Shown here: piece by piece, positions 741 to 47,848 of the stretch | Numbering within the stretch: position 1 is the stretch's first letter | Layout of the letters: the number at the start of each line of letters is the position of its first letter | Assembly (NCBI GenBank): GCA_951799445.1 | Contig: OX637297.1 | Location: 11,408,001 to 11,472,000 of the forward strand | Direction: 5' to 3' | Source of the DNA: Pseudisothecium myosuroides | Taxonomy: Eukaryota > Streptophyta > Bryopsida > Hypnales > Lembophyllaceae | Length of the DNA: 64,000 nt | Notes under the pieces: generated by a model | Told to the model about the DNA's origin: nothing | What the model saw: the letters and a program-made list of their open reading frames with translations, nothing else | Databases searched by the model: none | Made by a program: the position numbers and the translations under genes

Positions 741-1746
741 TGTCGCAGCACAGAGTAAGTGAATTCCTTGTTATACTCCCAAAAACCACTCTAAAGCATA
801 ACAAAATGACTCTAAAGATCGAACCCACGAGATTCTGTGAAGTGTCTAGCTCTATTCCCAACTTAAGCTCAGCCAGTATCCAATTTCTACTTTCCGGTCC
901 TAGATCTAAAGCCGGAAACAACAACACACCAAAAACAACGACCAGACCTCTCTTTATCTCTTCCGGCCTGCCAAGCTATTCGGTCCTGTAATCCTATCAC
1001 AACCCAGGATCCTACAATTTCTAATCCTGGAACTTCTCTGGACCGATCCGATCCGGTCCTTTCACACGTACTCTCACTCCACTCCGGTTTAGTTTTGCCT
1101 CTGTTTCACCATCAGAGGGTTCGCCGCTTGCTTTTGAGAGTGGCAGGCCCGCCACTCCTTCCGTGACTTATAGTGGCTGAAGACCCACTTCTCTATTCCA
1201 CTACTTCCTACACTAGCACGGATCCGGTTTGATCTCTCACAGCCACCCGGACAGCGATCCGGTTTGCAGGTCACACAAAGACCCCCCGTACGATCCTCTC
1301 ATACTACAACGACCTTGATGCCAAGTTCCCTCCGCGCAAAGTTAGGTGGTTACAAGTGAACTCGTCCGTTCCAACATCAACTAAAGTCCTTCCGTTTACC
1401 AACTAGGGCAGCGAGACCTCACGGGAGATCGGACACTCAACCGGATTTCCTATCCAGGAGCTCTAGCGCGACTAAGGACTCCTTCCCTATCCGCCTAGCC
1501 TAACAACGATTTTCTCGCCCGGAACCGTGAACTGTAGAGGTGCTGAGGAACTGAAACCCACTCCCAACACTTAGAATACCCACTCACCTGCACATAAGAG
1601 CAAAACAAACACACTAAGGGGAGAAATCTCTCTAGAATCTGCATACATTTTCCTAACTTCTCACCAAAACAACCCTGCCACGCGCGAGAGAGACGTACAA
1701 CAAGAAATCAATAGAAAACACACAAAAACTCAAGAGAAAAGACTCC

Positions 1747-1767
1747 CAGTCTCCTTCACAGAGACTG
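1747..1767 (-). other. Perfect 7-bp hairpin downstream of copy A coding frame
   Basis: CAGTCTC and GAGACTG can pair around a 7-base loop, 175 bases after the stop codon of the element's coding frame. Copy B has the same hairpin, and the diverged copy C has a different sequence with the same stem length at a similar distance. A TATA-like TGTATAAT lies just upstream on the minus strand. Confidence 0.55.
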
Positions 1768-1941
1768 ACTATTATACACTTTAAAACTCAAAAGTCAACA
1801 AAAAGGGGCCCGGAAAGTCCGCGCGGAACTTTCGGTCCTTGTCGAGCCGGCCAGACCGGAAAACATCCGATCTAGACCAGATACACCGGATCAAATCCGG
1901 TCCGGTCCTAACTAACAAATATTTACAAAACTAAATCCTAT

Positions 1942-3708
1942 CTATCCTATCATAACCGGATCTACTCCTTGATCCGTTCCTTCGTCCATAACTTGGTCTT
2001 TGCCTTGGTCCACGCTCTGATCTTGATCCGCACCCTGATCTGGGGTTAGATCCATACTTTGATCCTGCCCCGGGTTCAGTGTGGGACTTCTAGGTGGTTC
2101 CGCTCCAAGCTATTCGAAGACGTCCGTCAGGATCCGGTTTCGCTCCCCGGTTTCACGTTCTGGGAGATCCAGTGACAAATCCAAGTTGATGGTGTGCGCG
2201 AGCTTCCTCCCACTCTTCTTTGACTGGGGAGTTCCCTCCTTTCCTTCCGTCTGAATGCCCACGTTCGGAAAAGACCCGGGCATTGAAAGGTCGGACAGAT
2301 GGAACGACTGTGACAACGTCACTCCGTTCAGCTTTTGGCTGCTCTCCTCCATCCGGTTTGCAGCTTCTCGCGCTTCCATCATGACCAATTCCACCTTCTC
2401 GGAATAGTCCGTCAAAATCCGGACCAACCTGGTTCCGGATATTTTCTTCTCCTTGAGGACTCCCTCGTCAAATAGCTTTGACTTGGTGATGGCCTCTCCG
2501 GTTGTCCCAAAAGTGGCCTTCACGTCCTTGGCTACTTTCCGGGTAGCCTCCGCCATCTCCCGTGTGGTGGCCATGTCCTCCTTGAGGAGCAACAATTCCG
2601 TCTTCAACGACTTGTTCTCCTCTTGGAGTCGTCGTATCTCCGCTTCTTGTTTCCGGATCTCATCCGGGCTGGAGATGAATTCTGCAACCACTCTAGCAAG
2701 GTTGCTATCTGCTGGTGCTCCCACCAACTCGCTGATCTGGTTCAGAATCAACTTCTTCACTGTCCAGTCTGCTCGCACATCGCTCAGGATGTTGATCAAC
2801 TAGTTGAACGGATCCGTCGGATCCGCTCCGGAAGGACCCAGTTCTTCAAAAACCGGTTTCTTCCTAGGGTTCGATGTCTCATCCGGAGGGGTTGGGGTTC
2901 CTCTCCGGTGAGGAGGCGTCGTCTTCTGCCGCTTGTGCTGCGGCCGGTGTTGCTCTTCCTCTTCTTCTTCTTCTTCCTCGGAACCGGATACTTCCTCCTG
3001 TACTTCTTCCGATTCCGATTCCCCATACTTCAGGAGTGACTCATGAGTCTTCCACTCCTTCTCCTCCGTATCCGTGAGGAGTTGATTGTGCTTGTAAAGA
3101 TGGAAGATGTAGGAACTCAACGGAGTCGGCCTACTTCCTCCGATCTTTGGAACCAGACGGCTGACCAGATCGGAAAAGATTCGGGCCCAGTCCACTTTCC
3201 GTTCCCCGCTCAGGGCTCCGAAAATCAGGTTCCCGATGGCGATTGTCACCCTCGTCGGCTTCTCCGGGTGGGTGATCGGAACCAGGAACTGCAGAAGGTT
3301 TCGATGCCGGTCGTCCAAACAATCCGCGACCGCATGCCCATCCTTCGAGTCTACCGTGGTCCGGAACTTCCCTCGGGTGTAACCTTCCTTCGAGGTGGCC
3401 ATCCCTCGACCTCCTAACCGGAAATCGTACACGGACCTCCACATTTCTTCCGTCCAACTGCCCGGAATCCCGCGGATGGTCTTGTTGAACTGATTCGAGA
3501 GTTTTCCCAACAGCTCTCGAATCATCCATTCCTCCCTAAACCCCCAGGGTTTATCGATCAGTCCTCCGCAACCCATCTTGGCAAGATCCTCTATGAGGTT
3601 GTCCTTTTCCTTCTCTTCTGCTGGAATAATTGGACACACCTTCCGGAATTTAACTTCTACTGCGGAGGAACTGGACGGTCCTGCTCTACTCTTGCGGAGC
3701 TGAGGCAT
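1942..3708 (-). pseudogene. Element-encoded coiled-coil protein, copy A (two nonsense codons)
   Basis: A 589-codon frame starting MPQLRKS, the start chosen because copy B is closed upstream and copy C starts at the equivalent place. Residues about 40-225 form a conserved globular region. It is shared with copies B and C and ends in a segment with the motif FLVPI.HPEKPTRVT. An acidic glutamate run follows (about 235-255), then a basic stretch (HKRQK), a heptad-like coiled coil (about 350-400) and a D/Q-rich tail. TAG codons interrupt the frame at 2800-2802 and 2110-2112; copy B has CAG and CAA at these places. The general layout recalls plant 'putative transposon protein' or Gag-like accessory proteins, but I cannot assign a family. 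The C-terminal D/Q region may act in protein contacts (inference). Confidence 0.75.
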
Positions 3709-3981
3709 GGACACGAACTGTGCTAACCGGATTCTGACTAAGGCTACCTTTCCCTCTCTTAGCCGCACGTCTCGTTTCTCACCTTCGCTCTTCCGATCTC
3801 AACCAGAATACCTCTAAACCTGCAATACACACTAAAGAGCTGCGCGCCCTTACACACACACACGCACACACAAACTCACAGAATAAGGGAGCAAATCGCT
3901 GGAGAAGGAAGCTAAGTATGCGCTGGAGAGCGATTTCCGCAAAAGAAATTTGAAAAAGAGTGGCAACTGGATTGGTCAGCC

Positions 3982-3989
3982 TATTTATA
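3982..3989 (-). promoter_or_regulatory. TATA box of copy A
   Basis: On the minus strand the sequence reads CTATAAATAGG, about 280 bases upstream of the MPQLRKS start codon and about 230 bases inside the element end. The same box is conserved in copy B. Confidence 0.6.
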
Positions 3990-4220
3990 GTCTGATTTGT
4001 CATCATGACCAAATCCGTTCCTGACCCAATCCGTTCCAACTTAGATCCGCTCCAACTCTAATCCGGTTTAGATTCAGATCAAATCTGGATTGTCACCTCT
4101 TCCGTTCCGTAGTTAATTTCCGGTTTCCCGTTATCTCTTGCTCAATTCCGGATCCCAGATCACGGTTTCCGTTCCAAGATTTAGATAACTTACAAAAAAC
4201 CAAAAATTCACATTGCGACA

Positions 4221-5866
4221 CTAGGGCGCACAGGGAGTTGTATTATGCAAATCGTTATAGGTCAAGTTCCTACCCACATGAATGCTTGACGATCATGCAT
4301 GATAAAATGGATCATGCAAAGACCGCTTTCTTCATTTTCTCTCACAAACATAAGGCTATTGATGGTCTAATCAAGTTGCCTGTATCTGTAACCGGTATGA
4401 TAGCCCATGGTCATGGTGATGTCCGTTATGCCCATTATGGCTTGGACATCTTCTCTCATAATTCCAACTACACAGTCGACTCCTTTGCTAAGTTGTTGCA
4501 AGATTTGGAATTGCCCCCAAAGTATTTTTCCAGGGAATTGTTTGTTGGTTCCAGGTCAGCTCCTCTTTTCGATGTAGTTCTACAAGGAGATCACATTTGC
4601 AAAACATCTCTTCGACCAGCTCCAGAGATCCCAATTTTAGGGCTGTCACTCCCTCCGATTTTGAATGTTCAGATGGACAATGCTACTGATGACAATAAGA
4701 ATAGATTTGTGTTTTGCTTCTGGTCCCTTCTTGTTGCCAAAATTTTTTTTCGGGAAGTGTATGTGAATTTCATGCTTGTGGGACATACTCACGATGACAT
4801 CGATGCATTGTTTGGGAGGTGGAGCATGTTGCTGAAGAAGGAAAACTTTCCCACCATTCCTTCATTGATGAAGTCCTTCATGGACGTAGAATCGGTTCCT
4901 ACAATTCCCCATCTTGTAGAAGAAGTGCCTGATTTTAAGGCTTTCATTCAGGGGTTCATCATAGAGAGAGACGAGTCACTTGTTGGGCACACCAAGGCTC
5001 AACAATTCAAGTTCTATCTGGAGTCAAATGACTATCCAGTCATGAAGTACAAGCTTCTGTGCACGGATGTAGACTGGCTGCCTAAAGAAGGTGGAGGCAT
5101 TAAATTATGGCAAGAAGACTCTGAAGGTCGGAGTTTGTGGCCGCATGGAGAGCCGGTCCCCGTTTTCTCACGCCCCATGAGAGGTGTTGATGACATATTC
5201 AAGGGTTTAACGGGATTCATCAATTATTGGGAGAAATTGTCCAACGAAGACCAAACTGGGGAGTACAGAAGACGGTATGAGCACTTAATATACTACTGGC
5301 GAGCAGTGAAAGCAGTGTTGCATGAACCAATTGAACCTCCATCTTCTTTGAAAGATGGCTTTTGGCCATCCACTCGTATTGTACCAACGATCGAAGATCA
5401 GTTTGAAGATAATGGTGAGATTCAGGAAGAGTTTGCAGAGGATGACATCTATGTTGAGCAATTACGCGATCGCCCACAACAATCCTTTCGGGTAATGCGT
5501 GATGTCTGTGCAGGATACTTTCTTGCTATTCGTCCCGCGGATGGCGATGCAAGGCCTGTTTGGATTGCAAGAGCCTTGTCTGATCCTGATAGCAACCCCG
5601 AAGAACCGAATTCTGTGCTCATTCAATATTTCAAGCCCACATCAAGAAACCAAAACATTCAAGAATTCTACACTGGTTGGGATTCTTCAGGAGGATTACG
5701 GTGGAAGGTTGACGAAGCTCTCCGTCCTATTTGGGAGCATACAGATTCCTTGATGACTGCATGGAAGTCACAGATCAAGAAGGACACGACTCAATGTAGG
5801 CTGAAGATTTTGGCCGCTCAAATTGAAGTGATTCACAACAATCTAGCTGCCTTGAATTCCACTTGA
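4221..5866 (+). CDS. DUF7869-like gene, C-terminal part (separated from its N-terminal half)
   Basis: This is the C-terminal 547 codons of a gene whose N-terminal 400 codons lie at 20911-19712 on the opposite strand. Bases 4221-4225 (CTAGG) are one half of a target duplication, and coding proper resumes at 4226 in perfect frame. It carries the family's signature blocks: MHDKMDHAK (about residues 424-432 of the joined 946), QMDNATDDNKNRF (about 550) and VGHTHDDIDALF (about 585). The spacing of conserved Asp residues (HDKMD, MDN, DDID) would suit an RNase H-like or transposase-like metal site; that is inference. The C-terminal segment (CAGYFLAIRP... to the stop) also matches the decayed paralogue at 11080-14471. 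No internal stop is present. The only ATG-type starts here are internal, so this half is not a gene on its own. Confidence 0.85.
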
Positions 5867-6398
5867 GCATAAATATTACTCTACTCAGTTCATTCTATAG
5901 TAATACTTTGCTTTTATATTGTGTAGGTAATACTTCTGTTTTTCTTATAGAATTTTGTATTGTGCGTCATACAAGAGACGTAATATATTTATGTGTTAAG
6001 TGTTTTTATACTACAGATTTGCTTTACATAAGCAATAGAAATTCTATGTCACGTGGTATACAATAAATAGTATAAGTTTGTATGTTTTGATTTAATTTGA
6101 TGGATTTCCATGGGAATCACGGTTCCAAGTGTATTAATTGCTTTTATGAAGCAATTGCATTTATATTTGATATGAATATATTTTAATATTGCATTCTACC
6201 TTTACATGTCTCTATGATTGACTTTAATTTCTTTCTAAATTAACTATAGAAAATTCATTTCAATATCTGAAAGAATTGGAAAAAAATGGTAATGGGTATT
6301 ACCACTTTTTATTTTGTTAACGTTTTAAGCACTTGTCACATTTTTGGATAGGGGCTTCTATGTTGTTACAACTTTCTTGCTTGTAAAGTTCACTTAGC

Positions 6399-6518
6399 AA
6401 CACCAAGTCATGTATATTTCATAGGTGTTCGTCCAAACTCAACGAGAATCGAACTTAGACCGCTTGAATGAGATAAACATTCCCGTACAACCAACTTTGG
6501 ACCTCATGACTTGGTGTT
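6399..6518. repeat. 120-bp fold-back (MITE-like) unit
   Basis: A perfect 14-bp inverted repeat (AACACCAAGTCATG at 6399-6412, its complement at 6505-6518) bounds the unit. A nested 7-bp pair GTCCAAA/TTTGGAC (6431-6437, 6496-6502) lies inside. The minus strand of the centre contains GTTCGATTC, which resembles a tRNA B box, but the expected T-stem does not pair. It could be a small non-autonomous hairpin element or a tRNA-derived remnant. Confidence 0.5.
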
Positions 6519-7713
6519 CAATAGATGGCATGATCTTCACATATATAAATTGAAACACGATTATTACATAGAATTGTATATTTTCAAAGAGCTACTAAGT
6601 ACAGTAAACTCTCATTTTAATGGAAATTATACTTTACAACTAATGAGCTTAGTGTTTATCACCCTAAATTTGCTAAACTCAAAATTCAATTTTTGGACGT
6701 CTATATGGATACTGGTATTTTGAGAGGGGCCAACTCTCTCAAAATATTGAATATGGTGTTTATTCACCTGACTAAGGTTCTTTTTACATTATATTGTATA
6801 GAATTGCTTTCAATGCCTCTTAAAAATGAACTATGTATTGAAGGTTGATAGTTTGATGTTCTTATTGTTTGTATAATTGTAGCATCTTCTTGTGCAATAT
6901 GTACTTGATGTAATGCACTATGAAAAAAACGTAGTGGAGAACATCGTGAAAAACTACGTTTGGGGATAAGGACTCTCCTACAGTAAGAGTTGAAATGCAG
7001 GCACAGAACATCCAACCACATCTTCATTTGCAAGCAAGGGGTCCTAACCATGACAAATTGTATAGTAAGGTCCACTTCATTTACGAATTTTCCAATCAGT
7101 TTTCACTAGAAAATTCAGCAACTTTAGGAAGCTCTAGCATGCTAAAAAATAAACCAATTTTGGAACCGCAAATTGCGTTGGAATTGAAATGAAGTGCACT
7201 TCAACTTCATAATAAGTGAAAAATGATAATTTCAAATCTTACAACAATTTGGATTTCTTTTATACTCTACCTACCATTTCATAGAAAACCTTTAGAAGAT
7301 AGTCAAAGTTTTTTTGCAATGGGGTGAAGAACAAGCAAGAAATCATACAAGCAATCCAAGTGGTATGAGATCAAGTATCTCTAAAGCAATTGTGAAGGTT
7401 CATTTCTCATATATACTTTTGAATACAAGTTGAAATTTTCACAAACATTGGCAACACTAGATAGTATATAGTGTATAGAAAACATCAAACTTTTTGTATT
7501 GTTTTCAATTGTATATGTGTGTTTGTGATTATGATAAAGTAGACTTTAGTGTGATTCCAATGCAATTCAAAATTCAAAATTTTGTTCAATTTCGAATATA
7601 TACGGGCCTCCCAAAGTTGACTTAATCTCAGCAGAATGCAAAAATTTGTAAATGAAGTAGACCTTATTGTACAGTGGGGTAGCAATCAAAATGGCATTTT
7701 TGAATTTGCAGTG

Positions 7714-8070
7714 AAAGAAATTTCAGTGCTGCCAACTTTGACAGCCTCCCGAGGGCTCAAGAATTATCTTTGACCATGAAATTTTTACCACAATATCATC
7801 TTTAAGTTAATTATATATGTATCAAATTTCAAGGCCAAAAGATTTACACAATAAAAGATATTTGAAATCTACCAACATGTGTAGTCGTGAGAAAAATTTC
7901 ACTACTGCCAACTTTGACACCCTCCCAAGGACTGAAATTTTTTCTTTTCCTATAAAAATTTGGTCATAGCCCCATCTTTATGTTGATTACATATGTGAAA
8001 AATTTCAAGTCCAATAGAACCCCACAAAAATATATATTCAAAATCTACCAGCATGTGTAGTTATGAGAAA
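7714..8070. repeat. Diverged two-copy tandem repeat, about 190 bp each
   Basis: Both halves contain, in order, TTTCA(G/C)T..TGCCAACTTTGACA, CCTCCC(G/A)AGG, a long AT-rich middle with CATCTTTA, ATATGT and AATTTCAAG, and TCTACCA.CATGTGTAGT. Divergence between the halves is substantial, so the duplication is old. No coding potential was seen. Confidence 0.55.
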
Positions 8071-8239
8071 CAGTTTGTTACGTTAGGTGACATTGGGGCC
8101 ATTCTACATCATATTATAGTATTCGATGAACTCCGATAGGAGTTCATCTTAGTTTTGGATGAGTTTCATCTAAATGTTTGAGTTCATCCATCTTAGGATT
8201 TGAGTGTTTAGGTGGGGAGAGTTCCTTGACTTGACATGG

Positions 8240-8264
8240 TTTAGGGTTTAGGGTTTAGGGTTTA
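8240..8264 (+). repeat. Interstitial plant telomere motif
   Basis: Three perfect TTTAGGG units plus a partial fourth. This is the telomere repeat of most land plants, here far from any visible chromosome end. Confidence 0.85.
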
Positions 8265-9124
8265 GTGGGAGGAGGCTAAACCAATTTCTTGAGTGTGGCA
8301 TGGGTTTGAAGGTACTCTCAAGCGTTTTCTAGCAATTTTAGATTGTTTTTAGAGTAATTGGAAGTGGAGGAGAGAACTTAAAAAGTTGTGAGAGTTTTTC
8401 CCCAAAATTTTTAATTTCCTTTCTTGTAGTAACAATTTTGAGTGGATTGAAAAATTTCACTTCTAGATTGTTACTTATACTTGTGGTAGTGGTAGAGGAG
8501 TTGCATACAAATCCAATGCTTCAATAATCGTAGGATTTTAGTGATTTTTGAGGAAGTTAGAGGGTTTTGAAGTTTGCTAGTTTTTTTAGACGAGTCCCTG
8601 GATTGAGCGCTCCGTTTTCTAGAATCTAGGATTTTCAAAGATTTTTCTGAAATCTAGGAAATTTGAAGATTTTCTGTCAAAATCTAGGAATTTGGAAGAT
8701 TACTAGAATCTAGGAACTTTGAAGATCTTGGAATCTATGATTTTAGAAGATTATTGAAATGTACATGTGTTATAATTTGAAAAATCCAGAATCTTGGATT
8801 TAGGTTAGATTCAGATTCTCTTTGAGAGGAAAAAAAAAAAAAAAAAGAGGAAGGTGCAAACTTTGAAATTCAATTCTAGGAGCATTTTAGCTTGGATTTG
8901 AGTAAAATTTGTGCCTATTTTATGTGAAATTTGCCAAGGAATCCAATGGTGTAGTTGGTTTGGCATTCAAACCTGATTTTCAGCCTGGAATGACGTTTTT
9001 CATCGGCTGAATGGTGTTTTTGAACACCAATTTTTCAAAATTTCCAAGAACTCAAGCCTAATTAGACACTTGTTCAGGTTGCCCTAAGCCTTTAGATAGT
9101 TGTAGGTATCCAAATAGTCATTTT

Positions 9125-9331
9125 ATGATGCAGAGTAAGAGTCAATATTATCGATCTCCATCACCAGACTACTTGGAGGATAGTCACATTGAAGACTTAG
9201 GACCAGCGGTGGATACCAACGAGGCTTTTGAGTCTATTTCGGTGTTGGATACCACTAGGAGGCTTCGGGTTTGGAGTGTGGGTACATTTGACTATATGGA
9301 CGACGATCCTTGCAGCATGGTGAGGGATTGA
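9125..9331 (+). CDS. Small unassigned open frame
   Basis: A 68-residue frame starting MMQSKSQYYRSPSPDY, acidic and without recognised motif. It is one of the few open stretches in this interval with non-AT-rich codon use. No splice sites or neighbours link it to another exon, so it could be an exon remnant or chance. Confidence 0.2.
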   Translation: MMQSKSQYYRSPSPDYLEDSHIEDLGPAVDTNEAFESISVLDTTRRLRVWSVGTFDYMDDDPCSMVRD

Positions 9332-11079
9332 TTTTCTGGAAGGGTAGGAAGTATTTCTCTTCTTGATTGGAAGCTCCAATTTGGACTTGGATGAAGGAGA
9401 AATGTCAACGATCTCCAAGCTTCAACGATTAGTACACTTTTGAGCTATTACTACAACATTTGGAATATGAGGTGCTTTAGACATATGAACGATGAACCGA
9501 GGAGCATACGCTCCAATTGCGCTAGGTAGAGCGCTATTGGCAGGCTCGTATAGAGCTTGTTTCTGCTCTCAAGGAAGGCGCTGCGGCAAGTTTGATTACT
9601 ATGGAGAAAGGATGCCATATTTAACTACTTTTGGACTTTCAATAGTCCAGAAGTAAAGAGGCGGTGAAATCCCCGGATGTTTTCTTATGGGTCTGGAGAT
9701 CTCCTGAAATAGGAACGCTTTGCATGCATCCAATCTAGCACCCACAAGTATGTCGGGGAGTGCTTCATGTGCTTAGAAATGAATGAAATCGTGTAGTTGT
9801 AACATAGTGGATCCGTAGTAGAGTTCACATGATTGTATTGGGAGATCTGTGGACCGGGTTTCCGTAATTTAGGCATCCAATTCACAGCACAACTGAAGTC
9901 TCAGAACCTATCGAGAGATCCCCCGATGACCACCACTTGTTGCAGACATGGCTTCCATTCCATATTAATCCCTCAGTGAGCGCTGATCTTCACATAATTC
10001 TATCGGGAGATCCCCTGACGGGGGTGTAGAATATGAGTCGGCTTCACTGACAATCTTGGTGTTGAAGTGGTACAATTTGATTCCTGTGCTATAGTGCAAG
10101 TGACATCCGAGTTCATCAAGAATGATTCACAATAAGGCACGTTGGGGGCAATTCTTTCAAAGATATATGGTATCTCGAGAGTTCAACGGAAGTACACACA
10201 AGTGGATTTGAAAGTCAAACATCAGTTCACAATTATCAAATGAGCAATTGCTCTTGGGAATAAGGAGTCCGGTTCTAGGGTTCACCGGGAGATCCCCCGA
10301 TGGACTGCTAATATAGTGGAGCTAAGGTAGTCAGGATATGACGAAGTGACAGGGGCATATCACAGTAACTTACTCACAGTGACATTTGAAGAACTGTAGA
10401 CCACTGAGTCACAGGTGCTCAGACGTTCGACATACATCAGAAGATGAATAACGGCTAAGTAAATATAATATTCCATCCGAAATAATGACATTAGTTTCAG
10501 TTTGTGTGAAGAACATTAAGGTTCTTTCATTGCAAAAAATAGATCCGTACTTGGTTGTCCGCTATATAATTGTGAAGATGCAAAACCCAGAAGACTAGAA
10601 TTCCAACAGTGACTAACTGTGAGAGAAAAGAAATGCATTATTCAGACTCATTTGAGTGCATGTATGACTAGAGCAATGTACTCTGTTCCGGACACAAACA
10701 TAAACTACTTCCATTTCAGGAGATGAGAGGAAGAAAGACATCCCGCGCTTCTGCTATCAAGTCATTGCCCCCATGCCGCACGCAAAGAATAGAAATCATA
10801 AACATATTAATATATTCATAAAGATTTATTTTACATACACATGTCACAAAAAGCAGCTCTAAAAAATTAATCGAAGAACAGTCATACTGACTCAGCGGAC
10901 TGTACTTCGAAACCCTTACTTGCGGCTGCGCTTACTGGATGTAGAATGTGTCGTGCGATATCACGATGGGAGTTGCGACCCGCAGAATATATTGTAACAT
11001 CTCACAATTGCCGCAACAACCGACACAGTGCATTGAGAGTTCCCACGACGGCCGTAGCGACTCTAGACTAGGCACTCAA
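9332..11079. other. Intergenic DNA with GATC-centred palindromes
   Basis: No gene is supported. It contains several members of the 18-bp palindrome family (9910, 10002, 10284, 10950) and a related GGAGATCTCC at 9695-9704. Stop codons are frequent in all frames. Confidence 0.45.
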
Positions 11080-14000
11080 TCATGGATCCACCACGTTTGC
11101 CCGATTCAAATTCACTAAGGCAGCCTCCCTACTCTTCTGAGGAATCGTCCGTGATTTTTGATCCACTCTCCTGGACCAATTCGCATACACTGCAGCATCC
11201 TCGTCCACCTAGGTGGGGGGACTTTTTTCAACGACCCATTTACCGTACCAGCAATTCCGATAAATCAATTCCAGACTCGTTTCGGAGTTATCGGGTCGCC
11301 AGTACTGAAGCAAGAACTTCCCGTTATTCACATCTCCTTCCACTCTGCATACAGTAGACAATGCTCTTCCCTACCAAACAGCACATGATTCCGGGACTTC
11401 CGGTCTGACAAGTACCCAACAGCCTGGTCATATGTCTAGCCATGAATTAAAGCTTTCCCTTAGCGCTTCATTTGTAGGGCCGCAGTAAGGCTCCGGCTCC
11501 TCTTCTTCCTCCGGAATCACGTCCATGGGATTCACCGTCGATCCTGGGCGAGGGACTCCATTACGCGCCACCCTCCAATCGTGTTGTGGCCAGAAGCCTT
11601 CCACCAACTTTGGAGGACACTCAGGTAGTGGTTCCTTCAGCTCATCGAGAACACACTTCCAGTAATCCACGTATGGACCGAACGCAGTTGCAAATCCCTC
11701 GCATCTAGAAATACCGTATTGCCAGTACTGAATGTATTTCTCGAGTCCTACCAGCATGAAAACCTTGTTCAAGGTAGCTTTCCGCGCCGCTTCCCGTGCC
11801 TTCTCTTGATTTCTATGCGGTATCGGAACCTTGCTGCCCGACATGGGCTTAAACGGAACAGGCTTTGGACAGCCGTGAGGGAGCATGGGCCGACCATTGC
11901 TGTCTGTCTTCCAAATGCGTTCAGAAGGTTTCTTCGACGGCAACCAGTTCGAATCAACTGCTGACCTTTTGAAGTTCATGACGGGGCCCCCATCAGTGTC
12001 CACGTAGAACTTCAACAGGTGTATCTCCCCCAATCCAATTAATTTTTCCCCGCGATCGCATTGGTAACCCTCCACGAACGACTTGAAATCCCCCACCTCC
12101 TGTATGAACTCCGGCATAAATGACAGTTCTTGGGACTGCATGAAGGCTTTCATGAGGTCAGCGACGACAAAAGTGTTCTTGGTCTTCAGGGCCTTGGAAA
12201 GGTGGCTGAAATATGCATCGATGTCCTCGTGAGTGTGTCCGACTAGTAGAAACCCAACCTGAATTTCCTTGAAGACACCTCGTGCAGTGAGCAAGGATAA
12301 GAACGCCATCAGATATTTGTTCTTGTTATCCTTGGCAGAGTTGTCAAGCTGAAGGTATAAATTTTCAAGAAGGGGGGTACTTCCGACTCGAGCTCCAGGT
12401 TTGGTGAGGGTTAGGCTGTCCATACATCTAGACTTTCCTCAAACAATGAGTTAGCCAGCGGATATGGAAAGAGGTCGCCTGCCTCTCGAATAGGTGGACC
12501 CTCCAGCCGGCGCAACAACCTCGCCAAAGACGAAATGGTGAAGTTGGAGTCCGCCGGCCAGCAAGATGGAGCATAATGGACGTAAGCACCGTCACCATGG
12601 CCATGAGCTACCATTCCAGTAACGCTCATCGGAAGCTGCCCCAAACCGGCCGTGGCCTTCGTTGTCACACACAGTCTGGGTAGAGCCATCTTGGATGTAT
12701 CCATCTTGTCGTGAATTATACATAAAATTCTTCGAGGATCTTGTTTGGATTCCTCACGCCAAGACACATACAAACGACGGCAAGAAGCTTGGTGATTCAG
12801 ATGATGAGTCCGCTGCTTCACGAACTCCACGTACTCGGGGCTTCCTTTTGGAGACTTCAGAATAAACTGCTGTAGGTCGTCGCACGTAGTACATTTTGCA
12901 AACGAACTTCCGACAGGCTTAATGGAGACATTGTTGAAGTGCTCCCGCTTGAGTCTACTAATAGTCGACTGGCTCACGAGCGGCAGACCGTAGTCGGCAT
13001 TCAACTGCACATCCAGAACTGGTACGCTTAAGCATCGGTACGAGCGAAGGGGAAGGAATGCAAATGACAAGCAATGCACCAGAACAGTGATTGTGATATC
13101 TCACGATCATTGATCTCGTCGGGAGATCGCACGACCAATAAAGCAGTGACAGGAGATTAGGGGCACTACCTCGTTGGCGTCTGCTCGGACTCGTTTCCAA
13201 TTTCTTCCGGGAGGAAGGAATTTTAGAGTGCCCGTTCGCCCGTTCTCGATTCCGCGCATTTGATGGGGCATTTGATCAGCATTCTCGTCAATAATGGCTT
13301 TCATAGTCCCAGCGACCTGAACAGTCCGAGTCTGCGGGCGCTTAACCCCTTTGTTTTCGTGCGTCCCTGATATGACGCCGTCGTTGTACATCTCAATGTA
13401 ACTGTGGTAAGTGGACTTCGGGATGCCGTAAATTATGTACCACGCCTTGCCACAAACATCAACTCCCTGTAGCGTGACGTATTTCCGCTTCCGCTCCCCG
13501 TATCTTTTGTGTAGTTGTCCTCCCACTCCAATCCCATATTCACGGCGCTCGCCAAACGACTTCAAATAGTACTTCTGCCTTACTAACAGCGTGAACTCCT
13601 GGTTATAATGCTGACAACACAGACGTCTGCAGCACTTCTCCGAGCTGACTTTCCAAATCTCCTCGTCTGCCGTTTTGCGGGAGTATTACGATTCTTTCAG
13701 TTCTAGATTGGAGTTGCGAACTATAAACCGGTATGGTGCTTTCATTCTACCTCCGAGGTAAGCAAGAGGGTCGTCCATATCGGGAATGGCGGCAAAATGA
13801 TCCACTGTCTCCTTCAACGAACGACCGTTGGGAAACCAGCACTCCAAAATTGGCCACCTGTCGTGAGACATTATGGCTTCGGTGTCACCCACAAAAACAT
13901 CGAGGACTGTCACACCTACAAAACCTTCACCAAGTGTTTTGTCTTGGAAATGATCCTCCGGCCTCCAACAAATGATACGACCCGAAGAAACAAGGAGTTC

Positions 14001-14471
14001 GTCGGCGTCCTTCCGATGCACATCAAGTCCAAACCAGGCTCCTTGACAAATATACGGACATGGATCCATCGGGGGATCCCCCGACGCTCTAACAACGTCG
14101 GCGGCTCTCCACAACACTACATTCTCTTGAACATCCTCTAATGTGTTCATACCCCTCTGACAGGGAAAGCATTTCAAATCCTAGAATTCTAATTTGATAG
14201 ATTGAGGTCGCACCAGAATGTAAATCCAAGGCTCAACAGGTATGGGCACACCCAGCCATTGGCCCTGGGGACGAACCTCTTTAACAATCCCTGATCCAAC
14301 TTCACTGAATCCATGCACAAACAGTTTAACCCAATCACCATTCACAAACGCTTCACATCCACCGGTGGAATCCTGGGATTCACCCTCTATATGCGTTCCG
14401 TCCACATACGGAACTATCGCGTCAGCAACAGACTCACAGAATGAATCCATTGTCAGAGTGAATTCTATCAA
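11080..14471 (-). pseudogene. Decayed DUF7869-like paralogue
   Basis: The reading runs from about 14471 to a TGA at 11080-11082 and aligns with the split DUF7869-like gene from end to end. Matching blocks include an N-terminal VKLF...GI segment, KVSSEKCC, GVDVCGKAW, ENADQMPHQ, CIIHDKMDTSK, QLDNSAKDNKNKY, VGHTHEDIDAYF and FLLQYWRPD near the end. A GT-AG intron (13005-13169) is inferred, because removing it restores similarity (ANE to LNADYG); the split gene lacks it. Disruptions are TAG 14181-14183, TAA 13686-13688, a frameshift near 12415, TGA 11428-11430, TAG 11371-11373 and TAG 11209-11211. Several stops fit C-to-T changes. It is not functional as read. Confidence 0.8.
13005..13169 (-). other. 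Intron in DUF7869-like paralogue
   Basis: On the minus strand the donor is GAG/GTAGTG and the acceptor GATGTGCAG/TTG, 165 bp. It contains two of the 18-bp palindromes (13090 and 13118). Excising it keeps the frame and matches the paralogue, which has continuous coding at this place. Confidence 0.6.
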
Positions 14472-16231
14472 ATCCCTTGGACGAGATTAAAACGATATGT
14501 AAAACCTGTACATCATACATTCAAGGAGTTAGGCATGTCTACAGAAGAGTGCTGCATTTAGGGCCTTGAAACCTCAGGACCTGAAGGACAGAAGCATCAA
14601 CGTCTGTACAGTCGTGGGAACTCACGATCACACGGCAACACAACATGAACAAGTAAATCTAGTTACTGTCAACAAGAAGTTCGAAAGCCTAGATGCAATA
14701 GTGCGATCTCACAAGGGCCGTCTGAGAACCACTAGGAAGAAGCCAAGGCATCCAGGAAAATGTTGCAGAAGTTTAGAAGTCATTAACCAACAAATATTCA
14801 GTACATTGTGGGATCCCACAACACTCCTGGCGCTGAATCACTTAAACCAGAGATCGCGGTATCCCAAGATCCTCCCGGCAAATAACATAGACCGCTACAG
14901 AAATACAAATGAAGTAGTGGGTCAAATTGAATCACTCTTACGAGTCCCCAACATACTATCAATCAATCGTGGGATCCCACGAGAACGGCATCGTGTATTT
15001 TCCAATAGAGTGTTTGTGAACCCCCCCTGAGTTGGAGAACCTCGTGCCAACCAAAAATGATCGTGAGATCCCACGATGCTCATACAAGATGGACGAGGAG
15101 TATGACGGTCATCGACAAGTAAGGCGCCTATAAGTGCACAAGGAAGGCCATAGCCAAGGTTCAATCGATCGTGGGATCCCACGACGAAATGATAGGAGAT
15201 CCCTCGACTACCAGACCGCGATATCTCTAGACTCGGAGATTGAGAGGTCTCACCACGCTCTATATGCAGAGGTCGTGGGATCCCTCGATGATTACGAATG
15301 TTGGATATATACACGTATTCTACCATCGTAGACCAACGTATCTACAGAAGATCGTGAAATTAGGTTTCCTGTCACTGGTTTCATGACATTCGACACTCTA
15401 TAAATATTCTCAATTACTGTACAAAAATTCTCTACTTTTAAAGTGGGTTTTGCAGTAATTGAGACTCCTGAACCTCCATGTATACAATAGGAAACGTTCT
15501 TAGAAGTAGTTGAATTTGATGGCTGGATTTTCCTCATGCAAGTTCCCCTAATTCCTAACGCAACCTAAATTCACTACTTTGTGAAGATGTTCTGACCGGT
15601 TGTCATCCACGTACAAGGTTCTCATATCAATTTGCCCTCAGAGCAGTGCCGTCCTGCGATTCAAAAGGAACCTCGATGTCACCACAGCATGGTGATCCCT
15701 TAAGCACGTGAGTTTTTCGCAAAATGAGACCAATGCGCGAAGAAAATTATCGCAGTCAAACTCCGTTTCACTCTCAATCTACGACATCCTCAGTTTGTGA
15801 CAGAGTTTTGTGGCGTCAATTCGACTACAAAATCCTCGACATTCGAAATTGCATAACACTTGCAAGGGATGCATTCTTACCTTGCAGCAACTGCCTCGGT
15901 CAGAACTTCGTGCGCCTCCACGCCCACTCTGTCGCCAACGCCGGCAGACACCCACTCGCCACTCCGCAGCCTGCTCTGCCTATTCACGTGTGCAAACGAA
16001 AAGAGCAAGCTCCAGGTTCTTTACGGGTTATGAACCAGGTGGGTGACGTGGCTGGTTGGAATTCTTCAGCTCAGAATTCCCGCTGTGAATTTTGAAATCA
16101 CCAAGCGATCCTTGATTTTGAATGTTGGATGCGTTCTTGAGTGCCGTGCCACAATCAACAACGGCTGGGGGGTATGTGCGGTCCTTTACTTCGGAAGTTG
16201 ATTGCATTCTTGAATTCCACGCATCTCTGAC
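14472..16231. other. Upstream region of the paralogue, palindrome-rich
   Basis: Densest cluster of the 18-bp palindromes (seven between 14611 and 15185, another at 15272). No gene is supported between 15300 and 16231. The last bases (16227-16231, CTGAC) are the reverse complement of GTCAG, which matches GTCGG at 736-740 in four of five positions. This is expected if both are the target duplication of copy A, separated by inversion. Confidence 0.5.
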
Positions 16232-16461
16232 TGTCGCAATGTGAATTTTTGGTTTTTGTAAGTTATCTAAACCTTGGAACGGAAACCGTGATCTGGGATC
16301 TGGAATTGAGTAAGAGATAACGGAAAACCGGAAATTAACTACGGAACGAAATAGGTGACAATCCGGATTTGATCTGAATCTAAACCGGATTAGAATTGGA
16401 GCGGATCTGAGTTGGAACGGATTGGGTCAAGAACGGATTTGGTCATGATGACAGATCAGAC

Positions 16462-16469
16462 TATAAATA
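16462..16469 (+). promoter_or_regulatory. TATA box of copy B
   Basis: CTATAAATAGG, about 275 bases upstream of the start codon at 16742 and 230 bases from the element end, conserved with copy A. The upstream 200 bases are dense in GGAT/ATCCGG-type words, a composition shared with copy C. Confidence 0.6.
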
Positions 16470-16741
16470 GGCTGACCAATCCAGTTGCCACTCTTTTTCA
16501 AATTTCTTTTGCGGAAATCGCTCTCTAGCGCATACTTAGCTTCCTTCTCCAGCGATTTGCTCCCTTGTTCTGTGAGTTTGTGTGTGCGTGTGTGTGTGAG
16601 GGCGCACAGCACTTTAGTGTTTGTTGCAGGTTTAGAGGTATTCCGGTTGAGATCGGAAGAGCGAAGGTGAGAAACGAGACGTGTGGCTAGGAGAGGGAAA
16701 GGTAGCCTCAGTCAGAATCCAGTTTAGCACAGCTCGTGTCC

Positions 16742-18511
16742 ATGCCTCAGCTCCGCAAAAGTAGAGCAGGGCCGTCCAGTTCCTCCGCAGTAGAAGTTAA
16801 ACTCCGAAAGGTGTGTCCGATTATTCCAGCAGAAGAGAAGGAAAAGGACAACCTGATAGAGGATCTTGCCAAGATGGATTGCGGAGGACTGATCGATAAA
16901 CCCTGGGGGTTTAGGGAGGAGCGGATGATTTGAGAGCTATTGGGAAAACTCTCGAATTAGTTCGACAAGACCATCCGCGGAATTCCGAGCAGTTGGACGG
17001 AAGAGATGTGGAAGGCCGTGTACGAATTCTGGTCAGGAGGTCGAGGGATGGCCACCTCGAAGGAGGGTTACACTCGGGGGAAGTTTTGGTGCACGGTGGA
17101 CTCAAAGGATGGGCATGCGGTCGCGGATTGTTTGGACGACCGGCATCGAAACCTTCTACAGTTCCTGGTTCCGATCATCCACCCGGAGAAGCCAACGAGG
17201 GTGACCATTGCCATCGGGAACCTGATTTTCGGAGCCCTGAGCGGGGAACGGAAAGTAGACTGGGCCAGGATCTTTTCCGATCTGGTCAACCGTCTGATTC
17301 CGAAGATCGGAGGAAGTAGGCCGACTCCGTTGAGTCCCTACATCTTCCATCTTTACAAGCACAATCAACTCCTCACGGATACGGAGGAGAAGGAGTGGAA
17401 GACTCATGAGTCACTCCTGAAGTATGGGGAATCGGAATCGGAAGAAGAACAAGAGGAAGTATCCGATTCCGAGGAAGAAGAAGAAGAAGAAGAAGAGGAG
17501 CAACACCGGCCGCAGCACAAGCGGCAGAAGACGACGCCTCCTCACCGGAGAGGAACCCCAACCCCTCCGGGTGAGACCTCCAACCTTGGGAAGAAACCGG
17601 TTTCTGAAGAACCGGGTCCTTCCGGATCGGATCCGACGGATCCGTTCAACCAGCTGATCAACATCCTGAGCGATGTGCGAGCAGACTGGACAATGAAGAA
17701 GTTGATTCTGAACCAGATCAGCGAGCTGGTGGGAGCACCAGCGGATAGCAACCTCGCAGGAGTGGTTGCAGAATTCATCTCCAGCCCGGATGAGATCTGG
17801 AAGCAAGAAGCGGAGATACGACGACTCCAAGAGGAGAACAAGTCGTTGAAGACGGAATTGTTGCTCCTCAAGGAGGACATGGCTACCACACGGGAGATGG
17901 CGGAGGCTACCCGGAAAGTAGCCAAGGACGTGAAGGCCACTTTTGGGACAACCGGAGAGGCCGTCACCAAGTCCAAGCTGTTTGACGAGGGAGTCCTCAA
18001 GGAGAAGAAGATATCCGGAACTAGGTTGGTCTGGATCTTGACGGACTACTCCAAGAAAGTGGAATTGGTGATGATGGAAGCACGAGAAGCTGCAAACCGG
18101 ATGGAGGAGAGCAGCCGGAAGCTGAACGGAGTGACGTTGTCACGGTCGTTCCATCTGTCCGACCTTTCAATGCCCGGGTCTTTTCCGAACGTGGGCATTC
18201 AGACGGAAGGAAAGGAGGGAACTCCCCAGTCAAAGAAGAGTGGGAGGAAGCTCGCGCACACCATCAACTTGGATTTGTCACCGGATCTCCCAGAAAGTGA
18301 AACCGGGGAGCGGAACCGGAACCTGACGGACATCTTTGAACAACTTGGAACGGACCCGCCTAGAAGTCCCACACTAAACCCGGGGCAGGATCAAGGTATG
18401 GATCTGATCCCAGATCAGGGTGAGGATCAAGATCAGAGCGTGGACCAAGGCGAAGACCAAGTTATGGACGAAGGAACGGATCAAGGAGTAGATCCAGTTA
18501 TGATAGGATAG
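16742..18511 (+). pseudogene. Element-encoded coiled-coil protein, copy B (two nonsense codons)
   Basis: A 590-codon frame starting MPQLRKS, colinear with copy A. It has the conserved N-terminal region with HPEKPTRVTIAIGN, a glutamate run at about residues 238-250, a basic HKRQK stretch, a strong coiled coil (IRRLQEENKSLKTELLLL) and a C-terminal tail of repeated DQG/DQ units. TGA (16931-16933) and TAG (16958-16960) replace CGA and CAG of copy A, both C-to-T changes. The rest is open. The function is unknown; a structural or Gag-like accessory role is only a guess. Confidence 0.78.
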
Positions 18512-18684
18512 TTAGGATTTTAGTTGTAAATATTTGTTAGTTAGGACCGGACCGGATTTGATCCGGTGTGTCTGGTCTGGATTGGATGTTTTCCGGTCTG
18601 GCCGGCTCGGCAGGGACCGAAAGTTCCGCGCGGACTTTCCGGGCCCCTTTTTGTTGACTTTTGAGTTTTAAAGTGTATATTAGT

Positions 18685-18705
18685 CAGTCTCTGCGAAGGA
18701 GACTG
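18685..18705 (+). other. Perfect 7-bp hairpin downstream of copy B coding frame
   Basis: CAGTCTC/GAGACTG with loop TGCGAAG, 174 bases after the stop codon. A TATA-like GTGTATATTA is at about 18673-18682. If the unit is an LTR, this could mark a second promoter and the start of the transcribed repeat region (inference). Confidence 0.55.
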
Positions 18706-19711
18706 GGAGTCTTTTCTCTTGAGTTTTTGTGTGTTTTCTATTGACTTCTTGTTGTACGTCTCTCCCGCGCGTGGCAGGGTTGTTTTAGTGAGGAGATAGG
18801 AAAATGTATGCAGATTCTAGAGAGATTTCTCCCCTTAGTGCGTTTGTTTTGCTCTTATGTGCAGGTGAGTGGGTATTCTAAGTGTTGGGAGCGGATTTCA
18901 GTTCCTCAGCGCCTCTACAGTTCACGATTCCGGGCGAGAAAATCGTTGTTAGGCTAGGCGGATAGGGAAGGAGTCCTTAGTCGCGCTAGAACTCCTGGAT
19001 AGGAAATCCGGTTGAGTGTCCGATCTCCCGTGAGGTCTCGCTGCCCTAGTTGGTAAACGGAAGGACTTTAGTTGATGTTGGAACGGACGGATTCACTTGT
19101 AACCACCTGACTTTGCGCGGAGGGAACTTGGCATCAAGGTCGTTGTAGTATGAGAGGATCGTACGGGGGGTCTTTGTGTGACCTGCAAACCGGATCGCTA
19201 TCCGGGTGGCTGTGAGAGATCAAACCGATTTCGTGCTAGTGTAGAAAGTAGTGGATTAGATAAGTGGGTCTTCAGCCACTATAAGTCACGGAAGGAGTGG
19301 CGGGCCTGCCACTCTCAAAAGCAAGCGGCGAACCCTCTGATGGTGAAACAGAGGCAAAACTAAACCGGAGTGGAGTGAGAGTACGTGTGAAAGGACCGGA
19401 TCGGATCGGTCCAGAGAAGTTCCAGGATCAGAAATCGTAGGATCCTGGGTTGTGATAGGATTACAGGACCGAATAGCTTGACAAACCGGCAGAAATAGAG
19501 AAAGGTCTGGTCGTTGTTTTTGGTGTGTTGTTGTTTCCGGTTTTAGATCTAGGACCGGAAAGTAGAAATTGGATACTGGCTGAGCTTAAGTTGGGAATAG
19601 AGCTAGACACTTCACAGAATCTCGTGGGTTCGATCTTTAGAGTCATTTTGTTATGCTTTAGAGTGGTTTTTGGGAGTATAACAAGGAATTCACTTACTCT
19701 GTGCTGCGACA

Positions 19712-20911
19712 CCTAGCAACAATCAAATGCAAATCTAACTTCTTGGCCCATGTTAAAGCTGATTGAGACCCAGCAGGTGCACTTCTCCTAAGTGAATGGT
19801 ATCTATTACATGTGGAACAACGTGCAAAATTGTCTCCAGGTTTCTTGGCGTCGAACTCTGAGAAGTTCACCTTCCTAATCTTGCTCAAATTGGATGTAGA
19901 TACTTCCTTCAATCCAAAGACCATGTTCACAGAGTTAATTTCAGGAATGGCTTCCTTCCATTTCCAAGTAGCCGGAAGAATCATGGAGACTACCTTCTTG
20001 CCCGACTTAAGCGTCCAAGTACGGTGAGGCATATGGTCAGCGTTCTTCTCTAGAATGCACCTCAAAGTGGCAGTGGCTTGCTCGGTGTGCTTTCGAGGCT
20101 TCCGCAAACCAGTATTTCCGTAGGGCTGGGCATTGAAATCATGGTCCGCATATCCTTGGAAACGATGAAAAGTTGCTTCCGATACTCCAGCGATATGCCT
20201 CCAAGCAGACATACAAACATCTATACCCTCCACGGTGACCATCCTCTTTCCTTGCGTATCACGATGAACTTGTCTATGAACATCAAGCTTCATGTGGTAT
20301 CGAAACTTATACGATGTGTCACGATACATACGCTCTCGAAAAGCTCTAATCTTGTCTCTAGAAAACGGTTGAACGCAGTTGTTGACACAACAAGTGTTGC
20401 TTGAAACACTATTTATAGAGTCTTGAGTGAGAAGAGCTTTGGCCTTCACACATGTCTCTCTTGGCGGGTTCCTCACTGTACTCGTATACCGTGTGCTCCG
20501 TGTTGACGGAGGAGCCAAAAGAGTTGCTTGACGACAATTGTAATTGTAACGGAGCTCGTGATTCCAAAGACTTGCACCATTATAGAACACGTTCTCAATC
20601 ATCCACGCACGTATGGAAAACCTCCATTCATCTGGAACATGATCGACATCCAAGGTCTTCGAGATTTGGACGGCAACATAAGAATTGCCAAGTGCACCTG
20701 TAGCACCAACTACAAGCTCGGAGCTTACACTGTGACAAATCCCTTCAGCTACTGCAAGACCACCCTCATTGAAAAGTGTTACTAACTTTGTGCTCCAAAG
20801 ACTTCGTGGAACACCTTCGCATTCGGGAATATCCAATGCCTCCTCTGGCTGAATTTGAACATTGTCATCTGAATAGTAATCCTCTGCTTCGATAACACTT
20901 GCTGGGTCCAT
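19712..20911 (-). CDS. DUF7869-like gene, N-terminal part (400 codons)
   Basis: An open frame starting MDPASVIEAEDYYSDD and ending KKLDLHLIVAR at the element junction. It contains cysteine clusters (NTCCVNNC near residue 175; FARCSTC near 375) and the blocks VEGIDVCMSAW and ENADHMPHRTW shared with the paralogue at 11080-14471. The frame runs a few codons into copy B and stops there. Its continuation is at 4226-5866 on the plus strand; the phase is exact across the CTAGG duplication. The gene has no stops in either half, so the split is recent relative to decay of its paralogue. The upstream DNA (21.1-22.5 kb) is an array of TTCACCT palindromes. Confidence 0.85.
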
Positions 20912-23900
20912 GATCTGTTCATCATATGAAAGACGATCTCAATAGCCTATTTGACAAAAACAAATATAGGTGTTGTACTGGCATAGAGTTTTCTTTTTGA
21001 AACAAGTCAAACATATACTCCATAAGTCGTAAGAAAGACTAGTAGTCACAATAACTCACTTACAATGAAGGTGAGTAAAGGTGAAATAGATACTTCCTAA
21101 AAGTGCTATCCTACCAGCAGTCTACCCAAATTAAATAATTTGATCAAGTCGTTTTCACTTCAAGCAAAATTAGTTGAAAATAATATTCAAGTCATATTCA
21201 CCTCAAATGAAGGTAAATCAAGAACTTCCAGGAAAAAGTTTCAACTCTAATATTGGAGTAAGTACAGGTAAGTTGATCAAGATCTATAATTGATATTCAC
21301 CTCGAGTAGAGGTGATTGATGAAATGAACTTTTCTTATATACCCAGATTGAATTTAAGTAAATCTACTCTGCCTCATTGATTGTTAGGTCATCATAGTTT
21401 CAGACCTTTATATAGTTTAGTTCATTGGAAAAACCTATTCCCAAGTAATTTGCAGGGCAATTTGAAGGGCAATTACAAACCATACAAAGGATGAATTCTG
21501 AACAAACGATAGCAACCTGAGTACATTTTAGAAGTGCTTTTCACCTGGAGTTAAGGTGAATTGAAATACTGTCCAATTGATATTCACCTCGAATGGAGGT
21601 GAACTGACAAACTCTCCACCAGATTTTCACCTCGAGTGGAGGTGAACTGACAAACTATCCACCTGATATTCACCTCGAATGGAGGGGAACTGACAAACTA
21701 TCCACCAGATTTTCACCTCGAGTGGAGGTGAACTGACAAACTATCCACCTGATATTCACCTCGAATGGAGGGGAACTGACAAACTATCCAATTGATATTC
21801 ACCTTGAATGGAGGTAAATTGACTAACTCTTCAATTGATGTTCAAGTGGACTAGACGAGAGTTATAAACTTTCTAAGATATATTCCCCTCAAATGTAGGT
21901 AGTCTGACTAATATCTACAAGTGATATTGAACTATACTGGACGTATACTTGCAAGCATATAAAAGTAATATTTGTACTCAATAAAGGTAAATTAAATACA
22001 ATGTGTATATGATATTTAGGATTTGGGTAGGGAATAAAAACCCTATATTTACGTGGTATTCACCTCGACTGGAGGTGAATTGGAAACAAAGTATCATAGA
22101 TATTCACCATGAACGTTGATGATTCATAACTAAGTTCAAATGATATTCACCTCGACTGGAGGTGAATTGGAAACAATGTGTCAAAGATATTCACCTTGAA
22201 CAGTGATGAATTCATAACTATGTTCAAGTGATATTCACCTCAAGTGGAGGTGAATTGGAAACAATGTGTCATAGATATTCACCATGAACCGTGATGATTC
22301 ATAACTATGTTCAAATGATATTCACCTCGACTGGAGGTGAATTGGAAACAATGTGTCAAAGATATTCACCTTAAAAGGTGATGAATTCATAACTTTGGTC
22401 AAATGATATTCACCTTGAACGGTGATGAATTCATAACTTTGATCAAATGATATTCACCTCGATTGGAGGTGAATCAAACTATTTCATTGACATTCACCTT
22501 AATCAAATTCTATAAGTATCCTTATGACATACAGAAACCAGAACTGGACTCATTGATTTTAACAGCATTGAAACTTGATCACCTCAAATTGTTAGGAATA
22601 GTCTATTTGAAGAAATTCATGCCTGAAGAAGATTGTTGTCATCTCTTATTCTACTAGAAGGCAAGAAGGCGGGATCGTAACACATTCATATTGTGAAATA
22701 TATATAAATATCACTGAACATCATTCGCAATATGAAATCCAAATTTATGGACTTTCAGAACGTCTTCTAATCCTGTTTTCCAATCAGAATAAAAAGCGAT
22801 ACACTCAGCTCGACTGTGAATTCATATCGTTCATAGCAAATTCCTTTCAATTGAAGAATTACAAGTACACCACTTGCAAAGTGTACTCTGCACAGTGAGA
22901 GCTGCTACAACCTGCTGTCACTTACTAATAGAATCCAATACAAACAACAAGACTAATAACAAGAATCATAATGGGGTGCAATTTTGCTTGCAATTATCAG
23001 TCACTAAGACAATTGAAAACATCAATTTCAATGTAGACGCATGCCTCCCAGAACTCCTCCGTATAATCTTCAGAGTTCATAATAGAGCAGTGAACACAGA
23101 AGTTCGAAAAATTTGGTCAATCGCTTGAAATCTCTTTTATACAAAGACATTCGAACAAGTACAAGTGACAACAACTGAGACCAACTTCTTGCAAGAAATA
23201 TGATTGAAGATAGAATTGTCCCTTATGATTGCACAATTTCTGCTACTCAAACTACATCTGCGGTGAATTGCCTCACACATTCTAGACTGCAATTCAGAAA
23301 ACCAAAAGACGAATGGGATTCAATTGAACAACGCAGCGCATGCAAAGCAATTCTACTTTCAATCCTACTTTTTAAGGTTTAGGATTCTCTTATTCACTAA
23401 ACTTTGTCATTACTACAACAACAATTAGCACACTGAAATTCACCTTCTACATACTAAACTACAAGTTGAAGGACTTCATTTCACCAATGTCGTCTCCACA
23501 AAACATTCTCAAATGCATGTGAGCAGAATCTGCACCACTAGTATTACCTCTGCTATCTCAGATGGCACTACTATACTACAATAACAAAGCAAACGCCTAA
23601 ATCCTAAAGCCGCACCAATTGGAAATCACCGAAGAAAAAAAAAATTCTAAACGAGAAATCCAAGAATTGGACAAAGCTTTTCCTAATGCAATTGCTACCC
23701 AATTTTTGCTCAACTGAACATACACTTGCACTGAATTGAAGAAAATTAACAAAGTTACATCATGATTACGAATTACAAACCAAAATCACAACCATTGACA
23801 AGATGAGTAATGCAGGCCGATATTTCTGTGGAGTCCGCACAAGCAAGAAAAGAAAAGCATATTGCACGGCATAAGGAGGATCAAATTCAAAACAAAGGGA

Positions 23901-24800: not shown

Positions 24801-24819
24801 GATTTGTTTGTTTGTTATA

Positions 24820-45484: not shown

Positions 45485-45492
45485 TATATAAG
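45485..45492 (+). promoter_or_regulatory. TATA box of outer LTR-like unit
   Basis: CCTATATAAGGGCCCC, about 1.29 kb from the unit's left end, followed by a pyrimidine-rich stretch TTCTCTCTCT. It is identical in the inner unit at 47841-47848, as expected of a core promoter in a long U3 region. Confidence 0.7.
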
Positions 45493-47840: not shown

Positions 47841-47848
47841 TATATAAG
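47841..47848 (+). promoter_or_regulatory. TATA box of inner LTR-like unit
   Basis: TATATAAG in the same context as at 45485, 1.29 kb from the unit's start. Confidence 0.7.

Follow-up and report, generated by a model that had tools for sequence, protein, structure and literature searches.

Solo long terminal repeats (LTRs) form by recombination between the two LTRs of a retrotransposon, and when this occurs within one element the matching target-site duplications remain at its flanks. Recombining mobile elements can also invert the DNA between them, and the inversion 2z3 of Drosophila buzzatii was made in this way by the transposon Galileo (PMC2775673). Here we describe a locus in a stretch of 64,000 nucleotides, called the window below, from the moss Pseudisothecium myosuroides (assembly GCA_951799445.1, contig OX637297.1, positions 11,408,001 to 11,472,000; contig C11 in our numbering). 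In the window, a DUF7869 gene is split into two halves on opposite strands, and the breaks coincide with the ends of two solo LTRs in inverted orientation. As at 2z3, to the extent of the published account drawn on here, oppositely oriented copies lie at both breakpoints, the target-site duplications are exchanged and the unoccupied target is single (PMC2775673). Two other cases share part of this picture in the portions of their reports used here. In recombinant centromeric retrotransposons of maize, mismatched 5-bp duplications were read as recombination, and misassembly was found as well (PMC4806543). In Atlantic cod, inversions associated with transposable elements are ascribed to recombination between similar copies at both breakpoints (PMC12368964). 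At the moss locus, an inversion by recombination between the LTRs is the most likely explanation.

A split DUF7869 gene at two inverted solo LTRs

The two halves of the gene are ~13.8 kb apart (5866 to 19712). The 5' half (19712–20911, minus strand) reads from 20911 to 19712 as 400 stop-free codons starting with ATG (MDPAS...), and the 3' half (4226–5866, plus strand) has 547 codons, the last of which is its single stop. GCTAGG closes the minus-strand half, and CTAGG at 4221–4225 directly precedes the plus-strand half. When a homologue from Ceratodon purpureus (P0003) is used as a tblastn query, its residues 15–401 match the minus half with 70% identity and residues 400–941 match the plus half with 72% identity, and the two matches meet at the junction. 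The Pfam match to DUF7869 (PF25273, 3e-41) falls in the 3' half. An earlier, sequence-only reading of the window had joined the two open frames into one gene at CTAGG. The translations, the matches to P0003 and the paralogues that cross the junction, described below, bear this out. The same reading aligned the junction with a piece of a paralogue (ASCRRLYVSWREE), and this piece is found near 12.5 kb on the minus strand, in a distant relative of the gene. The relative (11080–14471, minus strand, with the outer limits of the sequence-only reading) is by tblastn 28–30% identical to P0003, is broken or intron-bearing, and lies on the side of the second split repeat discussed below. A simple insertion into the DUF7869 gene cannot account for the orientation of the two halves relative to each other and is ruled out.

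Aligning the window with its own reverse pairs 739–4220 with 19713–16232 over 3487 columns at 95.1% identity. Each arm starts with TGTCGCA and finishes with TGCGACA. The left arm, 3480 bp long, occupies 741–4220 on the minus strand, with strand assigned from the coding direction of the full-length element. The right arm, 95% identical and in the opposite orientation, occupies 16232–19711 on the plus strand. A full-length relative on contig C4 (26377077–26389927) has two direct 3487-bp LTRs that are 99.8% identical and 5.9 kb apart, with gtatc duplicated at both outer flanks. It matches gag (2.5e-9), RVT_1 (1.1e-13) and rve (4.6e-12), which places gag, reverse transcriptase and integrase in this order on its coding (minus) strand. 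Therefore, both arms are solo LTRs of a Ty3/gypsy retrotransposon with 3.48-kb LTRs, and they show the TG...CA ends and the 5-bp duplication of such solo LTRs. The same relative rules out that the 3.48-kb element is a DNA transposon. The best 40 of 1039 candidates were scored for the left LTR, giving 39 long matches elsewhere in the genome, of which 37 are close to full length and two are partial; nine further LTR fragments, all on C11, were left out of the counts.

The flanks of the two LTRs do not match within each copy but across the copies. The left LTR has GTCGG before it (736–740, plus strand) and CTAGG after it, at the boundary with the gene (4221–4225, plus strand). Read in the same direction, the right LTR has CTAGG before it, again at the gene boundary (19712–19716, minus strand), and GTCAG after it (16227–16231, minus strand). 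Within the copies, GTCGG and CTAGG agree at 3 of 5 positions, and CTAGG and GTCAG at 2 of 5. Across the copies, the CTAGG pair agrees at 5 of 5 and GTCGG and GTCAG at 4 of 5. By simple arithmetic with equal base frequencies assumed, the chance of such cross-matching is ~1.5 in 100,000. The sequence-only reading was right that CTAGG is shared by the two halves, and it missed that CTAGG is a target-site duplication and that the breakpoints are the ends of two inverted solo LTRs.

Other copies of this LTR keep their own duplications. Among 19 other sites, counted by eye and mostly those nearest to the left copy rather than a random sample, the flanking 5-mers match at 5 of 5 positions at 16 sites and at 4 of 5 at two. 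At the remaining site (L028), the 5' flank is the element's internal end. Contig C4 carries an inverted pair of the same LTR only 4.7 kb apart (28367025–28370495, minus strand, and 28375201–28378681, plus strand), in which each copy has retained its own duplication (5/5 and 4/5). This pair is a natural un-flipped control.

Unoccupied copies of the two insertion sites

The assembled genome (388 Mb, 222 contigs, of which C11 has 16.9 Mb) contains many copies of the DUF7869 gene. The best 40 of 1061 first-look candidates were scored for the 5' half, giving 39 further genomic places, and the search with the 3' half gave 41 further matches. Outside the window, 36 of the 39 listed 5'-half matches adjoin a 3'-half match, 35 of them with an overlap of exactly 5 bp and one with an overlap of 24 bp, and a 37th copy was seen to be continuous across the junction by direct reading. 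Hence the junction is crossed without interruption in at least 37 further copies in this genome. The 5-bp overlap is CTAGG, which is present twice in the window; its single occurrence was read directly in 11 of the at least 37 copies and is deduced from the overlap of the matches in the others. Eleven copies were taken with their flanks. Both halves are in one piece in ten of these, five of which keep the whole 946-codon frame while five are damaged to some degree. The DUF7869 gene is thus a high-copy mobile-element gene and not a single host gene. The halves do belong together, as the sequence-only reading held, but what it called one gene is a single member of a family of mobile elements.

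Homologous proteins also run through the junction. Of 321 matches, 120 were listed, and all 21 near-full-length homologues picked from these for their length pass the junction without a gap in the alignment. Without selection, 77 of the 120 cross the junction, 14 start no more than 20 residues from it and 29 start later. The sequence-only reading had named orthologues that begin or end at the junction as a finding that would speak against it, and the 14 predictions that start near the junction bear on this point, as discussed below.

The second site is read from a repeat that is split in the same manner. If the segment was inverted, the bases up to 740 and those from 16231 downwards were once one sequence. 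The stretches tested were 141–740 (plus strand) and 15632–16231 (minus strand), with the best 40 candidates scored for each (out of 162 and 158, respectively), so that unpaired matches of this repeat are uninformative. Among the 39 other genomic matches listed for each half there are 13 adjacent pairs; the overlap is 5 bp in 11 of these and 1 bp in the other two. Ten of these junctions were retrieved and all ten are continuous, with GTCGG once in eight and GTTGG once in two. Therefore, the A in the window's GTCAG is a later change from GTCGG. An exact 29-base pattern for this unoccupied site had no match, and the ten junctions read differ from it by at least one base. At both sites, then, unoccupied paralogues carry the target once where the window carries it twice. 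The reciprocal split of this second repeat, which the sequence-only reading missed, together with breakpoints at inverted solo LTRs identifies the event as an insertion followed by an inversion.

Origin and age of the rearrangement

Our data suggest the following series of events, to which we assign a probability of roughly 87%. Two copies of the Ty3/gypsy retrotransposon, oriented oppositely, would each have inserted into a different repeat, one interrupting the DUF7869 mobile-element gene and duplicating CTAGG, the other interrupting the second repeat and duplicating GTCGG. Both insertions would then have shrunk to solo LTRs. Recombination between the inverted LTRs would have inverted the ~12 kb between them along with part of each LTR, separating the two halves of the DUF7869 gene by moving the 3' half and swapping the target-site duplications. 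On this account the gene was already broken by the LTR insertion before the inversion took place. We infer that the exchange was a homologous recombination and that solo-LTR formation preceded it.

Several observations weigh against this series of events. One of the two exchanged duplications has a single-base mismatch (GTCGG versus GTCAG). A test for chimerism of the LTRs based on private substitutions gave permutation p values of 0.67, 0.16 and 0.04 at three thresholds, and the nearest neighbors along the LTR show no clear switch that would map a crossover. The 14 homologue predictions that start close to the junction (P0010, P0018, P0019, P0030, P0042, P0046, P0051 and seven others) could mean that a protein naturally begins there. 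Each has its own start, between residues 387 and 420 of P0003, and predictions start at many points along the entire gene, so these 14 are not read as natural starts. They are probably starts chosen by the gene caller after a frame break or an intron, and given this scatter the homologues that start at or after the junction look like broken or mispredicted copies.

In addition, the picture would be identical if the plant carried two unremarkable solo LTRs and an assembler had flipped the segment between the 3.48-kb inverted repeats. Such errors do happen: in the part of the maize centromere study used here, five elements with mismatched duplications proved to be misassembled in an earlier reference and were corrected (PMC4806543). 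However, the window contains no N, and contigs as long as 55 Mb (C1) in an assembly of 222 contigs suggest long reads able to span 3.5 kb, both of which make a flip less likely. The two arms, ~5% divergent, are also readily distinguished. We consider an assembly error unlikely.

The chimerism tests and the lack of a clear switch between neighbors would also suit a real inversion that arose through end joining of double-strand breaks or through aberrant integration, with no homologous recombination between the LTRs. Nevertheless, none of the four LTR ends or the four 5-mers is missing, with no base lost or gained, and end joining rarely preserves them all, which makes this route very improbable. 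That the halves derive from two different truncated DUF7869 copies that became neighbors by chance is scarcely credible despite the dozens of copies in the genome, as both halves stop at the same base of the gene and the same CTAGG, and their nearest copies, with the flanking element sequence included, form one group (L039, L040 and, on the 5' side, L049). On the favored account of insertion, reduction to solo LTRs and inversion by recombination between them, the locus is a clean instance of a type of rearrangement already known, and its cause is ordinary and well understood.

The sequence-only reading had called the break recent because both halves are still open, and this is unsupported. Compared with the copies fetched, the halves carry 41 private substitutions, some of which may predate the insertion. 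These are 12 synonymous, 29 non-synonymous and 0 stop changes, versus a neutral expectation of about 11, 28 and 1.5. The substitutions fit neutrality, so the open halves say little about age. Judged by these counts, the halves look free of visible constraint, and their openness lies within chance.

Element proteins and comparison with known inversions

The fold of DDE-type transposases has the order b1-b2-b3-aA-b4-aB-b5-aD. The predicted structure of the DUF7869 protein is RNase H-like and contains the elements in this order, and the model points to a DDE-type transposase, whereas the Pfam entry (PF25273) gives no function. In such enzymes, three catalytic acidic residues sit in b1, after b4 and in aD; across 92 sequences of the DUF7869 protein, conservation is 90% or higher at each of D427, D430, D552, D592 and D594, which are candidates for these positions. 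A first structure model from 21 sequences was poor (predicted local distance difference test score 58.5) and was not used. A sequence search with the DUF7869 profile at E up to 1 matched no solved structure, and Foldseek against the PDB gave no hit at E 0.001, the best being Mos1 at 0.084. With P0003 and P0013 as queries, hmmscan (E up to 1) listed PF25273 as the only profile and none for KDZ (Kyakuja-Dileera-Zisupton) transposases, to which a remote relation may still exist. A literature search on the name DUF7869 found no paper. The named sources of the homologues listed are mosses, liverworts, molluscs, a ribbon worm and a lancelet.

The right LTR contains an open frame of 516 codons on the retrotransposon sense strand (16961–18511, plus strand), which is broken in the left copy. 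In the full-length element on C4, each LTR has a 535-codon frame on the gag/pol strand (1383–2987 and 10747–12351, element numbering). We compared the frame in 22 aligned LTRs, namely the two in the window, the LTR pair of a single element and 18 more. Its length is divisible by three in all 22; it is open throughout in four and has internal stops in 18. Changes confined to single copies number 120 synonymous, 173 non-synonymous and 9 stops, where neutral proportions (28, 68 and 4 per cent) would give ~85, 206 and 11. Changes common to at least four copies number 29, 15 and 2. Pfam matches of the frame are weak and below the curated cut-offs. These counts suggest that a protein encoded in the LTR may have been under purifying selection while the element was active. 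A literature search for open frames inside plant LTRs returned nothing on the subject by title or abstract, and such reports may still exist. As side results, the locus offers a testable function for DUF7869 and an LTR that is seemingly protein-coding. More tentatively, the split gene might belong to an undescribed, eukaryote-wide superfamily of DNA transposons with the DUF7869 protein as transposase, and the retrotransposon that broke it might encode a selected protein within its LTRs, by which a solo LTR would be both a spare gene and a recombination arm, and the arms on the small, repeat-rich C11 may keep flipping segments; this is a speculation we hold less likely than its opposite.

The DUF7869 element extends beyond the gene on both sides. 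Downstream of the 3' half, the rest of the element (5867–6760, plus strand) runs to a 3' terminus at ~6760, about where the alignments of ten copies cease, and ends in a hairpin followed by ...GAATATGGTGTT. The terminal part (6716–6760), with its hairpin and ...TGAATATGGTGTT, resembles a stretch at about 42940–42987, and another related element may, by this likeness, end near 42987. Upstream of the 5' half, a non-coding part with repeats occupies 20912–24950 (minus strand). In the copies taken with flanks, the 5' terminus was not reached, and the true end lies beyond 24950. In two copies elsewhere, other sequence adjoins the 5' region. One (L048, oriented positions 25–70) has lost part of this region and has CCCTAAA repeats there, like those of plant telomeres, and in another (L046, oriented positions 1–225) this sequence is an end resembling the LTR family of the window's two arms.

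C11 makes up 4.4% of the genome and holds 26 of the 39 long matches to the left LTR, a share biased by a query from C11 itself and by the scoring of just the top candidates. By this count C11 looks rich in the element, and one guess is that it is a small sex-linked chromosome. The window also contains a 1.9-kb direct duplication (44194–46069 and 46550–48415, 92.7% identity) and blocks of tandem repeats, including 34711–35641 and 49798–54714.

Compared with ordinary solo-LTR formation, the two copies in the window are alike in being single LTRs without an internal part, but their duplications are exchanged. The Atlantic cod inversions differ in being large and in involving hAT-derived tandem elements instead of solo LTRs, and in the maize centromeric elements the duplications are not paired across two copies flanking an inversion, as far as the cited portions of those reports go (PMC12368964; PMC4806543). 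Within the same limits, the closest system, Galileo at 2z3, differs in that it is a DNA transposon with copies shown to be chimeric, whereas here the arms are solo LTRs that show no clear crossover point (PMC2775673). In addition, the unoccupied sites here are paralogous repeats and not non-inverted chromosomes, and the segment is only about 12–15 kb. A genome-wide scan for the signature of exchanged duplications could give a count of such inversions. Beside these systems, the window offers an unusually readable record of solo LTRs rearranging a plant chromosome, in which both insertion sites are legible from the paralogues of one genome.

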